This document shows, piece after piece, positions 3,187 through 15,528 of a stretch of 64,000 bases of DNA. The notes below the pieces were generated by a model. The model had not been told where the DNA came from, did not search any database, and saw nothing but the letters and a program-made list of their open reading frames with translations. Numbering within the stretch: position 1 is the stretch's first letter; each line of letters begins with the position of its first letter. The translations under genes were made by a program, and so were the position numbers. This DNA comes from an uncultured Cycloclasticus sp. (GTDB taxonomy: Bacteria; Pseudomonadota; Gammaproteobacteria; Methylococcales; Cycloclasticaceae), in assembly GCA_913060865.1 (NCBI GenBank), contig CAJXTU010000002.1, positions 62,001 through 126,000 of the forward strand, given 5' to 3'.

Positions 3187-3927
3187 ATGAACGACGACCA
3201 ACTATTAAGATACAGCAGGCAAATTATGCTGCCTTCGATTGACATTGAAGGCCAACAAACACTACTCGATTCACGTGTACTTATTATTGGCATGGGCGGG
3301 CTAGGTAGCCCCGTTGGGCTTTACCTTGCAGCAGCAGGCATTGGGCACATGGTTATTAGCGACTTCGACGACGTTGACCTATCTAATTTACAACGCCAAG
3401 TTGCTCATACAACAAACAACATTGGACTATCCAAAGTTGAATCGGCCAAACAAACGTTCCACGCAATCAACCCGCTAATTAACATTACAGCCATCAACAA
3501 AAAGCTAGAAGGCGATGAGTTATTAGAACAAGTTAAACAAGCCGACCTTGTTGTGGATTGTAGCGATAACTTTGAAACTCGCTTCGCCATTAATGATGCG
3601 TGTGTTGCCGCTAAAACCCCCTTAGTCTCCGGCGCTGCTATTCGGTTTGAGGGACAAATTTCCGTGTTTGATTCACGCGACGAAAAGTGCCCATGCTACA
3701 ACTGCTTATACCCACGCGATGGCGCGGTGGCACAAAGCTGCTCTGAAAACGGCGTAATAGCACCCATCACAGGCATTATTGGAAGCATGCAAGCCTTAGA
3801 AGCCATTAAGGTTTTGACCGGCGCAGGCAAATCACTACAAGGCCGCGTGTTATTGCTCGACGGCCTATCAATGGAATGGCAAAGCATGCAACTACCGCGC
3901 AACCCAAAGTGCCCAACTTGTTCATAA
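3187..3927 (+). CDS. moeB: Molybdopterin-synthase adenylyltransferase / ThiF-HesA family E1-like enzyme
   Basis: RYSRQIMLPSIDIEGQQTLLDSRVLIIGMGGLGSP and CxxC motifs (CPCYNC, CPTC). Confidence 0.9.
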   Translation: MNDDQLLRYSRQIMLPSIDIEGQQTLLDSRVLIIGMGGLGSPVGLYLAAAGIGHMVISDFDDVDLSNLQRQVAHTTNNIGLSKVESAKQTFHAINPLINITAINKKLEGDELLEQVKQADLVVDCSDNFETRFAINDACVAAKTPLVSGAAIRFEGQISVFDSRDEKCPCYNCLYPRDGAVAQSCSENGVIAPITGIIGSMQALEAIKVLTGAGKSLQGRVLLLDGLSMEWQSMQLPRNPKCPTCS

Positions 3928-4026
3928 TTTAAAGTCGGATGTACCGTGCTATGTCAAAAAAATTAAGGCGATAAAAGGTCCACGTTTGACTCTTAATATC
4001 ACAATACATGGAAGTACTATCCACTT

Positions 4027-4077
4027 ATGTGCCATTAATACGTGATTAATAAGCACCGCTTATTAACACTGTTAGGC
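4027..4077. other. Candidate degenerate attC site or left boundary of a cassette array
   Basis: 9-bp perfect hairpin TTAATAAGC-ACC-GCTTATTAA (4046-4066) four bases before a core site GTTAGGC (4071-4077); no clear R'' box upstream. Confidence 0.4.
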
Positions 4078-4197
4078 TCGTCTGTTATTATTCGTGCAAT
4101 TGTCTTGTTTATTTTTCGTGGCGGTTGCAAAATTTGGTTTGGGTTTGTGGCGGTAATTTCTATCATGCTAAACTCGTAATGTCGGCGGTGTAAAATC

Positions 4198-4252
4198 GCC
4201 TAACAAAAAAATCAAGCGGCGGACAAAAGAGGCGCTTATTTTGGCGTTATGT
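4198..4252. other. attC recombination site 1 (integron cassette)
   Basis: R'' GCCTAAC ... TCAAGCG ... CGCTTATTTTGGC GTTATGT; GCCTAAC is the exact reverse complement of GTTAGGC at 4071. Confidence 0.75.
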
Positions 4253-4310
4253 TTTCTCCTGAATATTAACTACCCTTGCTATTATTGAAAGTAATAGTAA
4301 TAATGATCTT

Positions 4311-4496
4311 ATGAAATCTCTTACCAAAAACCTTATTACAGGCGTTGGCAGCTTGCTTAGCATTTTTCCTAACACTAATTACGCCCAATTAGTGCCTAAG
4401 CAAACAGCGGCTGAGCGCATGCGGTCTCATTGGGAGAATACAGGTAGTTATATCTCTAAATCTATAGAGCAATTCGGCAATGAGCAATCGAAATAA
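4311..4496 (+). CDS. Hypothetical protein in cassette 2
   Basis: 61 aa ORF overlapping the next ORF; hydrophobic N-terminus. Confidence 0.5.
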   Translation: MKSLTKNLITGVGSLLSIFPNTNYAQLVPKQTAAERMRSHWENTGSYISKSIEQFGNEQSK

Positions 4497-4869
4497 AAAT
4501 AAATCCGTAAGCGCCAAAAAAACACCACAAAAACAAGTCACAAACCAAGTTACCCATCAACAGTTTAGTGGGCCAATACCGCCTCCTTCAATTTTAAGTG
4601 GCTACGATAGTATCGTGCCCGGTGCCGCAGAAAGAATCCTACGAATGGCTGAGGAAGATGCTTCGCACCAAAGAAATATTGAGCATCTAGCTATAACTTC
4701 AACTAAAAGCGAAGTAAGACTTGGTCAATTTTTTGGCTTAATCGTAAGTTTGTCAGCACTTGCATTAGCTGGCTTTGCCGTACTACATGACCAACCATGG
4801 GTAGCAACACTTCTAGGCGGCGGCACTCTTGTCGGTATTATTTCAGCCTTTCATCAAAAATCTAAATAA
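4480..4869 (+). CDS. DUF2335-like predicted membrane protein (cassette 2)
   Basis: GPIPPPSILSGYDSIVPGAAERILRMAEEDASHQR...then two TM segments, the layout of DUF2335 proteins. Confidence 0.7.
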   Translation: MSNRNKNKSVSAKKTPQKQVTNQVTHQQFSGPIPPPSILSGYDSIVPGAAERILRMAEEDASHQRNIEHLAITSTKSEVRLGQFFGLIVSLSALALAGFAVLHDQPWVATLLGGGTLVGIISAFHQKSK

Positions 4870-4950
4870 ACATAACAAAAAAATCAAGTCGTTCGCTATG
4901 CTCACTGGGACGCGCAAAGAGACGCGCGCGTCTTACTTAAAACGTTATGT
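4870..4950. other. attC recombination site 2
   Basis: R'' ACATAAC (4870-4876) ... AAAAAAATCAAGTCG ... CTTACTTAAAAC GTTATGT (4944-4950); ACATAAC is the exact reverse complement of GTTATGT at 4246. Confidence 0.75.
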
Positions 4951-5205
4951 GCCGTAATGGTATCGGAGCTGTGCAATTAGAATAGTGTCATATTGATGTT
5001 TATAAACGATCCTATGTTCATCGTTTATACGCCGTGACCAATATCCAGATAATCCATGCTTTAAAGGTTCAGGTTTGCCAATACCTTCTTGAGGAGTTCT
5101 TTGGATATTTTTAATGAGTAAATTAATACGTTTAAGTATTTTTTTGTCGGTGGTTTGCCAGTAAAGGTATTCTTCCCAAGCTTTTGTTGAAAATGTTAAC
5201 TTCAC
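4945..5205 (-). CDS. yoeB: YoeB family toxin (mRNA interferase)
   Basis: FSTKAWEEYLYWQTTDKKILKRINLLIKNI...GIGKPEPLKHGLSGYWSRRINDEHRIVY...RYHYGT. Confidence 0.95.
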   Translation of the reverse strand: MKLTFSTKAWEEYLYWQTTDKKILKRINLLIKNIQRTPQEGIGKPEPLKHGLSGYWSRRINDEHRIVYKHQYDTILIAQLRYHYGT

Positions 5206-5453
5206 TCAATAAGCTCTCTTTCAGTTCCGTTACCAGTTTCAAGCTCGGCCATGGATTCTAAAAGGCTTCTAGCATTTGCAGGGGATCTTAGTAAATATGT
5301 AGTTTCCTGCATGGCGTTATAATCTTCTAACGACATCATAACAACAGGATCTTCACTTTTACGTGTAATAATAATTGGTGCGTGATCATTACAGACACGC
5401 GCCATTGTCTTTGCTAAATTTGCTCTAGCAGCGGTATAACTTATTGCATCCAT
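5202..5453 (-). CDS. yefM: YefM/Phd family antitoxin
   Basis: MDAISYTAARANLAKTMARVCNDHAPIIITRKSEDPVVMMSLEDYNAMQETTYLLRSP; start trimmed to the conserved MDAI; overlaps yoeB by 4 bp. Confidence 0.93.
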   Translation of the reverse strand: MDAISYTAARANLAKTMARVCNDHAPIIITRKSEDPVVMMSLEDYNAMQETTYLLRSPANARSLLESMAELETGNGTERELIE

Positions 5454-5506
5454 GTGGAACTCCAAAGTGTTCATGTACATTAATTGGTACATCATAGCGT
5501 ATTGGC

Positions 5507-5605
5507 ATATAACAATTCACTCAAATAAATAAATAACAGTTGGTTTTTGCTCCTTCGTCGCTTATTTTAAGCAAAAATTATTTTCCGCTTAGCAAAGCGT
5601 TAGCA
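5507..5605. other. attC recombination site 3
   Basis: R'' ATATAAC (ggcatataac, one mismatch from the reverse complement of gttatgtgcc at 4944) ... internal TGC/GCA stems ... CCGCTTAGCAAAGC GTTAGCA. Confidence 0.65.
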
Positions 5606-5645: not shown

Positions 5646-6089
5646 ATGGAATTAAACGTATACCTTTCTGGTGAAATACACACCGATTGGCGAGAAAAAA
5701 TAATAGCGGGTTGCGAAGAAAGCGACCTTTCAATTTCATTTTCGTCCGCCGTAACAAATCATGAAGCAAGTGATGGCGCGGGCGATGTATTAGGCGCTGA
5801 AGACAGCGGTTTTTGGCGCGATCATAAATCGGCCAAGGTGAACGCGATACGCACTAAAACATTAATAGAAAACTGTGATGTAGCGATTATTCGTTTTGGC
5901 GATAAGTACAAACAATGGAATGCTGCGTTTGATGCCGGTTATTGCGCTGCATTGGGTACGCCCTACATTACATTGCATGCCGAAGATATTATTCACCCGC
6001 TTAAAGAAGTAGATGCCGCAGCACTCGCATGGGCTACAACGCCTGAGCAGGTGATTGAAATTCTAAGCTATGTCGTTAGCACAAAATAA
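5646..6089 (+). CDS. YtoQ family protein
   Basis: MELNVYLSGEIHTDWREKI...NCDVAIIRFGDKYKQWNAAFDAGYCAALGTPYITLH. Confidence 0.75.
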   Translation: MELNVYLSGEIHTDWREKIIAGCEESDLSISFSSAVTNHEASDGAGDVLGAEDSGFWRDHKSAKVNAIRTKTLIENCDVAIIRFGDKYKQWNAAFDAGYCAALGTPYITLHAEDIIHPLKEVDAAALAWATTPEQVIEILSYVVSTK

Positions 6090-7397: not shown

Positions 7398-8977
7398 TTC
7401 ACTTTCACCCACATTTTGTCACTACTAGCCGTATATAACGTTTTATTTAACGATCTTGCATAAACGATATTATGACTACCTTTATCAATCTTGACGAGCT
7501 TACTGCTCAGACGTTTACCTTGCCTATTATAAGTGGCGATTTTAATCTGCGAAACAGACTTAGGGACGTAAAATCGTGCAGCCATTAATCTTGATGGTAA
7601 TGTTGTCCAAGAACGCGTATCAGGGTGGACCATTTTATCCCGTTCAGATTTCACCTTATTAACCAACGAACCAAAAACTCCTGCACTTTGCGCAGCTTGA
7701 TTCCAGGCATGCCCTTCGACAACATTACGTATAACCGTCGTCATCATACGTAATTGTGCTAATGGCCCTGCTTCTTTTTGATGGCGCAACGCTAAAGCCG
7801 TAATATCGGCTACTTCAGAGAGTCTAGCCCAACGTTTACCAGTCGATGTTTGTGCCTCAATACGATATACCTGAGAGTCTACTGCCTCATAAATAGGTAA
7901 CTCAATAATTGTTGGCGGCCCAAACCCCAAGCTAAGGTCAAATTTCAGAAGTTTTTTCTCGGGTGCAAAACCATCGCCTGCGATAACATGAACCAAACGA
8001 CGCTCCGTAGACGCGGGCTTTTTAATGTCCTTAATAGCTTGTTTAATAACATCACTTTTAGGATTAAGCTCAAGCGCCTTTTTGTAGGATATTCGAGCAT
8101 TATCTCTAAGACTTCTATCTTCATAGCTATCCAGCTCTTGTACTACGCCTGCAACATAAAAACCGAATGGATTAACAAATGCGCTGGCTACTTTAGATGC
8201 TTGCTTATTAGAGCCTTTGTATTGATTTTTTATTATTGAACCAAAACCAACATTTGCCAGCTCGGCTCCTTTTTCTTTTTGCTCTTTTTCCTCTTTAGCT
8301 ATTTCTTTTTTCGCTTCACGAATTTTCTCATCAAATGCTTCTTTTTCCATGTTTTGTAAATCAATCGCTCGCCGTGTCACGTTATACGCATTACGGTCAC
8401 CTTCTAGCAGGTAGGCTATCGACTTGTAATTAAGCATCAAGACACGTTCAAAACCAACACCTGGATACTCACCCAACTCTTCATTGCCACTGATTGTTGA
8501 GACACCCGCAGATCCTAAACCTGATAAGAAGCTTGAAACACTACCCCTCTCTTTTTTAGCCACTTGAGATCTTTCTGCACTGGAAAAACTTGCTTGGGCC
8601 AACGTCACATCTTCTGCATCCAGCGCCATCAGCCCCAGCTCTAAATTAGCCAACAAATCAAGTTTATTTGGATCCGTAATACCTTTTTGGCGTAATTTAA
8701 TCGCTTGCTCAACCTCTCCAGATGAAATCATATTTTTAATGGCTAACATATCTCTTGTATAGCCTTCGTAAGCAACCTTTCTATTGGAGCTTACCCCTGC
8801 CTTCAATGAAGCAGGCTTTGTCGCAACACTTTTTTCTGTTGTATTTTTTACCGCAGCGTCACCTACTGCACTCACCGCTTTTGAAAATGACGATAATGCA
8901 TCAAAAGCAAACAAGCTTGTAGAAAAGCAAGCCATACAGATAATAAAAATACGAATTATTAATTTATTAGAATTCAT
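7394..8977 (-). CDS. COG3014-like secreted protein of the LpoB/YcfL locus
   Basis: N-terminal signal sequence; YPGVGFERVLMLNYKSIAYLLEGDRNAYNVTRRAIDLQ and ALRHQKEAGPLAQLRMMTTVIRN patterns; adjacent to lpoB/ycfL-like genes. Confidence 0.65.
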   Translation of the reverse strand: MNSNKLIIRIFIICMACFSTSLFAFDALSSFSKAVSAVGDAAVKNTTEKSVATKPASLKAGVSSNRKVAYEGYTRDMLAIKNMISSGEVEQAIKLRQKGITDPNKLDLLANLELGLMALDAEDVTLAQASFSSAERSQVAKKERGSVSSFLSGLGSAGVSTISGNEELGEYPGVGFERVLMLNYKSIAYLLEGDRNAYNVTRRAIDLQNMEKEAFDEKIREAKKEIAKEEKEQKEKGAELANVGFGSIIKNQYKGSNKQASKVASAFVNPFGFYVAGVVQELDSYEDRSLRDNARISYKKALELNPKSDVIKQAIKDIKKPASTERRLVHVIAGDGFAPEKKLLKFDLSLGFGPPTIIELPIYEAVDSQVYRIEAQTSTGKRWARLSEVADITALALRHQKEAGPLAQLRMMTTVIRNVVEGHAWNQAAQSAGVFGSLVNKVKSERDKMVHPDTRSWTTLPSRLMAARFYVPKSVSQIKIATYNRQGKRLSSKLVKIDKGSHNIVYARSLNKTLYTASSDKMWVKVK

Positions 8978-12643: not shown

Positions 12644-13600
12644 ATGCTAAAACCATTTACTCCACAGCCAGACTTGTTCGTTTCAAGCGCAAATCTTAAC
12701 CATCCTGCTCTACATGCGCTTGATAATACTGATTCTTTCTTGATTGGCCACCGGTTGAACAGATATCTATTTAATTTACCCTTCAAACACAGTGCATCCA
12801 AGCCATCCGCTGCCAACATTGTTTCGCAGTTTGCTGCTGGGGATGCGGTATCGTTTGTCCGACGTTCAGCTGGCTCAGTGCCTACACAGAGACTTATTGA
12901 TTCGCAAGTTTTGTCACCTTAAACTTGGCACGACCGTTCCGGAGGCATCAACGTTAGGCTAATTTAGCAATAAACTGGTCGGGCATAACTTATGCTATCA
13001 AGTATTGCGTGAGATCAATCGTCAGTTTGAGGCCAAGAACATCATTATGACCGAAGGGCGAATCAATATTATCAACACCACACCGATAGAAACCGCTCAA
13101 TCAGGGCGAGGCATAAGCAAAGATACGCACGTAAAGTGATATTCAAAGGCTGGATGGTCTACAAAAAAGACAGTCGTGACCGAACTAAACCTAGTTCGCC
13201 TTCTCCGTTCATACTAGGGTAGATGAAGATGGTTTTATTCACCTTTGAAAAATCACCTCTGGTAATGTCCATAATAGCTAGGAACGAGACACTCTACTGC
13301 TTGGTGGCGGGGCTGCTTTATATGCGGATGCCGCCTACAGCTCAGAAGAAACGCGAGACACGTTGAAACGCTGTAATATTGACATTTAGGTTCAACGTAA
13401 AGAACTGCGAATAAAGGCCATCATGTCCGCATTGCGGTCACACGTGCAGGCGGTGAACGTCCCTTTGCAACATATAAGCGACACACTCGGTTCACATAGG
13501 GCTTGCTAAAAATATCACCGCCTACGATATCGCTGTGATGGCATTGAATACTCGTAAAAGTACGACATTTCTAGAGTTGTATGGCTTAATTGATTCGACT
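12644..13600 (+). pseudogene. Decayed IS5-family-type transposase
   Basis: Fragments in different frames: QPDLFVSSANLNHPALHALDNTDSF; LCYQVLREINRQFEAKNIIMTEGRINIINTTPIETAQSG; LYADAAYSSEETRDTLKR; IAVTRAGGERPFATYKRH; AVMALNTRK; multiple frameshifts and stops. Confidence 0.85.
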
Positions 13601-13894
13601 AACCAGGATAGATGCGTCTATAGCACATAGAAAAGCCAGAAAATGGCCAAAAGCACCTTTGCTAAAAGCTATATTGACCAGCTTTATCCGTAACCATTGA
13701 AAATAAAATCGAAACTCAACATTGATGATAAAAATCAGTAGTTATACTGGGAGCTAACCTATTTAAACAATTTCACATCTTAAAAAAATGTCGACACCAA
13801 CAACTTATTTCTTATAGAAAATTCAATTTCAACTATAATCGACGCCATCTTCAACATGCCGAAAAAGTAACCTCCAAATAAAAAGACTCTATCT

Positions 13895-14803
13895 ATGCAA
13901 ATTCGTGTTTTAGGTTCTGGCGCTGGCGGCGGTTTTCCGCAGTGGAACTGTAGCTGCCCAAATTGTAAGGCTGTACGCGCAGGAACCATTAAAGCCTCTA
14001 CGCGCAACCAATCATCCATTGCGGTGTCATCAGACGGCGAACATTGGGCGCTGTTTAATGCTTCCCCCGATGTACGCGCACAATTAGAAAACTTCCCCGA
14101 AATTCACCCAAAAAACAAAGTACGCGGCACCGGTATTGAGGCCATTGTGATGTTCGATTCACAAATCGATCACGCCACCGGTTTATTAATTTTGCGTGAA
14201 GGCGACCCACTGACCATCTATTGCACTGATATGGTGAAGCAAGACCTCACCACTGGCTTCCCTATTTTTAATATTTTGGAACACTTTTGTGGCGTTGAGG
14301 ATCACCCTATTCCATTGAATGGTGATGCGTTTACCATTCCAAATATTGATGACCTTGAGTTCACCGCGTTGCCATTAAAAAGCAAAGCGCCGCCGTATTC
14401 GCCGCACCGTAACGACCCGCACGAAGGTGATAACATTGGGATGATTATTCGCCAAATTTCAACCGGCAAAACAACCTTCTACGCCCCGGGCTTAGGTGTG
14501 ATTGAACCGCACGTTGAGCAAGCAATGATGCAAGCAGATTGCGTATTAGTTGACGGTACATTCTGGACAGACGATGAATTAGCTTCCGTTGGCAGACCCT
14601 TATTGGCTCGTAACATTGGGCATTTGCCGCAATCGGGCAAAGGTGGCATGATTGAGTTTTTAGACACGCTGGATAAACCGCGCAAAATCCTGATTCATAT
14701 CAACAATACCAACCCAATTCTAAATGAAGAATCTAAAGAACGCGATATACTGACCCAACACGGCATTGAAGTGTCGTTCGACAATATGAATATTGAACTG
14801 TAA
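13895..14803 (+). CDS. pqqB: PQQ biosynthesis protein PqqB
   Basis: [24 protein letters not shown]. Confidence 0.98.
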
Positions 14804-14805
14804 TC

Positions 14806-15528
14806 ATGACAGAACAAACACCTTGGTCAGCAACAGAATTTGAAATGAAAATTCGCGATATGGAGCGTTTTTACCATATCAATCATCCGTACCATGTGAT
14901 GATGCACGAAGGCACACTCAACAAAGAACAAATACGTGGCTGGGTCGCAAACCGTTTTTATTACCAAGTGAACATCCCACTAAAAGACGCGGCGATTATG
15001 GCGAATTGCCCCGATAGAGACACTCGTGCTCAGTGGGTTCAACGCATTATCGATCACGATGGCGCACCCGGAGAAATCGGCGGTATTGAAGTGTGGTTAC
15101 AACTGGGCGAAGCCGTTGGTTTAACACGCGAAGAAGTATTATCTGAAGAACACGTACTACCCGGTGTTCGCTTTGCTGTGGATGCCTACGTTAACTTTGC
15201 GCGCCGAGCCGATTGGCACGAAGCAGCCAGCTCATCATTAACTGAATTGTTTGCGCCAAAAATTCATCAGCAACGGTTGGATAACTGGCCCGAACACTAC
15301 CCTTGGATTGATTTAAAAGGTCTAACTTATTTTCAGAAACGACTCAGCGAAGCGCGGCGTGATGTTGAGCACGGCCTTCGCATTACGCTTGACTGGTATA
15401 AAACCCGTGAACAACAAGAAAAAATGCTGGGCATTTTAAAGTTTAAACTCGACATCCTTTGGACAATGGCTGACGCGATGCACATGGCCTATATTCATAA
15501 GATGCCACCGTACCACACGGTAAAATAA
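14806..15528 (+). CDS. pqqC: Pyrroloquinoline-quinone synthase PqqC
   Basis: [32 protein letters not shown]. Confidence 0.98.

Follow-up and report, generated by a model that had tools for sequence, protein, structure and literature searches.

How does an array of gene cassettes come to lie behind moeB in a Cycloclasticus chromosome with no integrase gene beside it, and by what route would its cassettes have entered? The array spans positions 4071-5605 of the window, by which we mean the whole stretch of 64,000 nucleotides analyzed here, on contig C2 of the genome. It consists of three attC sites and three cassettes, with its right end at about G5599, and is laid out with its flanking genes as follows.

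3187..3927, plus strand: moeB/ThiF-family gene (Pfam ThiF, 7e-81), the conserved chromosomal left flank of the array
4072..4246, plus strand: cassette 1, 175 bp, with no recognizable gene
4198..4252, plus strand: attC 1 (34.6 bits, E 2e-4, attC covariance model)
4247..4944, plus strand: cassette 2, with a 61-aa open reading frame (4311-4496) and a DUF2335 membrane protein (4480-4869; 3e-15)
4870..4950, plus strand: attC 2 (67.8 bits, E 1e-11, same model)
4945..5599, minus strand: cassette 3, YoeB toxin and YefM antitoxin, genes antisense to the array
4945-5205, minus strand: YoeB toxin of cassette 3 (Pfam YoeB_toxin, 7e-37)
5202-5495, minus strand: YefM antitoxin of cassette 3 (Pfam PhdYeFM_antitox, 7e-26)
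5507..5605, plus strand: attC 3, degenerate (24.4 bits, E 0.04, same model; weak taken alone)
5646..6089, plus strand: YtoQ family gene, the right flank of the array (PF11071, 7e-64)

The original prediction had placed three attC sites in this interval, and their sequences are present there. Ten sites from the genome's two other arrays, none of them in the window, were used to train a covariance model; it matched exactly these three, everything else in the window scoring 15 bits or less. In addition, attC 2 shows 92% identity across 77 bp with one attC of the array on contig C9. The covariance model was used instead of a home-made scanner for R and L boxes, which failed to find the window sites and reported numerous false pairs, while an Rfam scan of the window found only a tRNA, generic models not covering attC. 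The prediction had also read the match between the core that opens a cassette and the R'' box of the same cassette as the mark of a cassette, which the genus bears out. In the window, GTTAGGC at 4071 pairs with GCCTAAC at 4198 and GTTATGT at 4246 with ACATAAC at 4870, both 7/7, and GTTATGTGCC at 4944 pairs with GGCATATAAC at 5504 with one mismatch (9/10 bases). For 102 cassettes from the genus, the opening core agrees with the R'' of its own cassette at 3.49 of the 4 outer bases; shuffling gives 2.13 (0/10,000 shuffles reach 3.49), and the R'' and R' boxes within one site agree at 1.97. The pairing is a real cassette signature, and repeats of this kind occur in the genome only in cassette arrays. 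Bottom-strand folding, to which the prediction had also pointed, was recovered in part: attC 1 forms both the R and the L stem, with a single G extrahelical, attC 2 forms the R stem only, an attC-like fold was not found for attC 3, and the folds of the three sites are no more stable than those of shuffled sequences. These results confirm that the window holds a genuine integron cassette array.

The only open reading frame of cassette 1 has no Pfam match, the YoeB/YefM pair of cassette 3 is matched by TIGR02116 as well, and no PADLOC defense model matched the cassettes. The position of the array can be followed across the genus, in which the order groEL-groES-moeB is kept and pqqA comes next in most species; in most other relatives the gap between moeB and pqqA is about 115 bp and the array is absent, and in genome G011 the order is moeB, 74 bp, YtoQ and pqqA, again with no array. 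Since most relatives have no array at this place, the window array could be inactive now. At the same locus in a closely related species (L057, genome G017), a different gene lies between moeB and YtoQ; after it comes TGCATAACAATTAATTC, possibly the remaining R'' end of an attC that has decayed.

The original prediction called the array CALIN-type and saw no IntI in the window. The second point stands, contig C2 giving no match to IntI, and within the window so does the label, the attC sites being clustered and at least two in number (two strong, one weak) with no integrase nearby; a complete integron has intI, attI and cassettes in cis, and intI is absent in cis here. The label is nevertheless incomplete, because an attI homologue that had been overlooked heads the array and because a complete IntI is encoded on a different contig of the genome. 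The genome-wide search advised at the outset found further attC arrays and a single complete intI, on contig C5 (444 bits, above the curated cut-off), with its own attI and array, all other IntI hits of the profile search falling far below the cut-off. In the C5 protein the tyrosine recombinase motifs HxxRH and Tyr are present, as is the patch WEWQY of IntI type.

Several features of the C5 locus (L006, G000:C5) are recorded here in their own right. The first cassette after its intI-linked attI (7519-8277) encodes a relative of class D (OXA-type) beta-lactamases, scoring 244.7 bits with NF012161, just below the cut-off of 250. The array also contains, in antisense orientation, the reverse transcriptase/maturase of a group II intron (RVT_1, GIIM; 13564-14472); it lies upstream of a GTTAGC core located near 15270 and is possibly part of an attC-targeting group IIC intron. 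In the first bases of the contig (L006 19-50), the first open reading frame begins MGSEMCIRDR, which resembles leftover transposase adapter at a contig end.

The sequence immediately left of the first cassette, which we refer to as the head, has the following parts.

3978..4074, plus strand: putative attI head, type A, 97 bp directly left of the first cassette, matching the intI-adjacent attI region of relatives
3979-3985, plus strand: attI box 1, TCCACGT
4006-4012, plus strand: attI box 2, ACATGGA
4040-4045, plus strand: attI box 3, ACGTGA, degenerate
4059-4074, plus strand: attI core CTTATTAACACTGTTA, with the insertion point G4071^T4072

An nhmmer model trained on five intI-linked sites only matched window positions 3979-4074 with E 9.3e-19. 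This test is independent of the window, unlike the score of 84.4 bits obtained with model R2, which includes the window sequence. The motif CATGGAAGTACTATCCAC (4007-4024) sits some 50 bp to the left of the first core; five relatives have it at a distance of about 100 bp from intI, and it is found at about 20 further places that lack intI. Heads are of two homologous types, both of about 100 bp and ending in TTAWTAACA(C)WG^TTA; type A has the inverted pair CCATGT..ACATGG and type B CCCTGT..ACAGGG, both have a third box near the core, and the boxes, putative IntI-binding sites, co-vary between the types. Conservation of the head stops at GTTA, unrelated sequence follows, and cassettes change exactly there. 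An attI normally adjoins intI, and no notable IntI similarity was found in the 1.5 kb left of the window head; homology and position nevertheless suggest that this head would serve as an attI.

The head bears directly on whether IntI might instead have inserted the cassettes at a secondary site of the attG type near moeB, a route commonly proposed for CALINs, the likeness to attI being incidental. The genome does have an IntI that could perform such insertion, and attG insertion is documented, at least in a title cited in PMC11023631, but the 97 bp that adjoin the first cassette on its left match the attI of intI-linked sites (E 9e-19) and the same head precedes other intI-less arrays of the genome. 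We regard off-target capture as having next to no chance of being correct. Bare attG insertion was dropped from consideration, the array beginning at an attI homologue.

Five head loci were found in this genome, one on C5 with intI and four without (two on C9, one on C12 and that of the window on C2), so that the other intI-less arrays found likewise begin with an attI head. The C12 array, behind a metZ-like gene (named by eye), has a head matched by the intI-linked nhmmer model, the head of the C9 array is of the type of the C5 integron attI and not of the window type, and the fifth head, at C9 63190, has as its sole downstream attC match a weak one of 20.7 bits. A tree of IntI sequences divides into clades that match the A and B types of the attI beside those genes. 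The resident C5 IntI falls in the clade that accompanies type-B attI, and the window head is of type A with a degenerate box 3, for which reason this head is possibly a relic of a lost type-A integrase.

To see how general the arrangement is, 18 genomes were scanned with sequence-only models of both head types, and 58 heads, some of them at contig ends, were examined with their surroundings. Only 7 adjoin intI and 51 do not. For 44/58 heads an attC follows downstream, on the same strand and no more than 6 kb away, and none lies upstream of, or on the opposite strand to, any of the 58. Two relatives assembled as single contigs carry six heads and one intI (G001) and eight heads and one intI (G006), and the multihead arrangement is therefore not an artifact of draft assembly. 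Two other identities for the heads were rejected: generic genome repeats, since attC sites occur only downstream and on the same strand, and a phage-borne repeat, the single match to a viral contig being a chance one of 26 positions in an unrelated large open reading frame. The family-level genomes examined were all Cycloclasticus. Outside the genus, 4/233 genomes of the order gave one weak head match each: two beside intI, one intI-less with downstream attC and one on a contig too short to judge. The intI-less one, in another family of the order (L336, genome G029), is a type-B-like head at 3836-3931 with attC sites 670 and 1850 bp downstream and no similarity to IntI in the locus, and attI-headed arrays without intI may thus not be limited to Cycloclasticus.

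The head could also be conserved as a promoter region from which cassettes are expressed, and not as a recombination site. It takes up most of the interval that separates intI from the first cassette, and of 48 intI-less heads that could be scored, 37 follow a co-directional gene and 11 an antiparallel one (orthologous heads not being independent), a setting in which read-through expression of cassettes is possible. Conservation ends, however, at the G^TT insertion point, exactly where cassettes change, and a promoter scan gave no excess of sites over shuffles. We consider a purely promoter-based explanation very improbable, although promoter and recombination roles can coexist in one head. 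At 4063-4091 a promoter-like match (10/12, with a TG ahead of the second hexamer) places one hexamer, the first, inside the attI core and the other inside the gene-less cassette 1; in number, such candidate Pc sites do not exceed chance.

We favor the reading of a distributed integron, in which the window holds an intI-less array with an attI of its own, one of several attI-headed arrays on the chromosome, filled in trans from a single intI elsewhere, and we put its probability at about three in four. The competitor of most weight holds that each head marks a former complete integron, that each lineage lost intI separately, once its cassettes had already diverged, and that the arrays are now frozen. 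Fragments of the 5' end of intI do persist left of the heads at G009:C4 and G015:C10 (E 2e-5 and 5e-8) and, by eye, at G016:C32, supporting loss of intI in place, and one intI of G017 has an in-frame stop; no such remnant was found left of heads at the other loci, the window included. In the window itself, the decayed attC 3 and a head type unlike that of the resident IntI agree with such a history.

Bearing on both readings is the comparison of shared loci, defined by clustering the 58 heads by left flank. The intI locus itself is shared by seven genomes, with both head types at the same place, and at ten further loci an orthologous flank and an intI-less head are found in two or more species. 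Flanks at these ten loci are 71-96% identical, several aligning to within 0-5 bp of the head, yet no similarity between first cassettes was found in any compared pair, including the pair whose 96% identical flank reaches the head. The window and its counterpart in G003 form one of the ten, with moeB flanks 77% identical and different cassettes, and at three loci (metZ, FAD-oxidoreductase and L299/L313) one species has type A and another type B. An earlier, smaller comparison supplied a counter-case, at a locus with heads not counted among the 58: G008:C2 and G013:C20 share the same first cassette, 96% identical over 675 bp. Turnover of cassettes at shared heads is thus the rule seen and not a universal one. 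Where the flanks reach to within 0-5 bp of the head and neither species has intI there, the gene was most simply absent in the ancestor already; on the simplest reading, cassettes were exchanged at heads already without intI, and the integrase therefore acted from elsewhere. This pattern, together with about 95 bp of attI conserved where the adjacent spacer has diverged, stands against frozen relics, which we judge unlikely but still deserving of some weight.

Filling in trans would proceed as follows: (i) IntI would be supplied from another locus; (ii) cassettes would enter at the attI head, at G4071^TT, through IntI-catalyzed recombination between attI and attC; (iii) once inserted, they would be bounded by attC sites; and (iv) the head would stay fixed behind its chromosomal gene, here moeB, as cassettes are replaced over evolutionary time. 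We infer that IntI may act in trans at present and that the resident type-B enzyme may accept the type-A attI of the window; most of the heads themselves are probably what remained of once complete integrons after the adjoining intI had been lost. Against this account stand the decay of attC 3, the degenerate box 3 and the mismatch between the types of IntI and head. The pattern points to a single integrase that may fill many sites distributed over the chromosome. A stronger form, in which one IntI keeps filling and emptying many attI sites of both types behind different genes, is plausible, though we lean slightly against it. When the best matches of attC sites outside their own array were compared, they did not sort by head type (50/114 the same, 55.4 expected), and both types are filled from one wide cassette pool. 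Nor did they cluster significantly by genome, the 16 matches against 9.9 expected being a weak excess reached in 75/1000 shuffles, so that frequent or recent traffic between the arrays of one cell is unsupported by this test.

CALINs are about as common as complete integrons, a survey having counted 2961 CALINs and 2760 complete integrons (PMC9024848). Proposed origins are off-target insertion, loss of intI and rearrangement (PMC8618304), and mobilization of CALINs in trans by a functional IntI is described (PMC12444791). Integrons are typically described with one attI near the integrase, and IntegronFinder seeks attI only in class 1 (PMC9024848), so that attI heads of CALINs would go unseen. 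If arrays without intI carry a working attI, then "integron" names a property of the cell and not of one locus, and attI models belong in CALIN annotation. Orthologous heads with differing cargo make the genus a set of natural replicates, and its paired IntI/attI types suit tests of how IntI recognizes attI. In one open literature collection, whose silence proves no novelty, no earlier description of multiple or orphan attI sites in this arrangement was found.

Four known systems come close to the window array. Like a CALIN, it has at least two attC sites with intI not nearby but elsewhere in the genome, and it differs in having attI at its head. With chromosomal integrons such as that on C5 it shares attI architecture, attC family, cassette organization and the G^TT insertion point, whereas here intI is lacking in cis and several attI-headed arrays lie on one chromosome. 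The CALINs of Xanthomonas away from the ilvD integron locus likewise occupy conserved positions across species with intI at one locus, but the available excerpts of that report (PMC12444791) make no mention of attI heads and describe the CALIN cassettes of pv. citri as fixed, whereas those of Cycloclasticus have turned over. In the Delta-attI gene cassettes of mobile class 1 integrons, a displaced attI is still recombined by IntI1 (PMC12901181); there, a partial attI ends cassettes inside the integron, whereas here a whole attI opens arrays at other loci.
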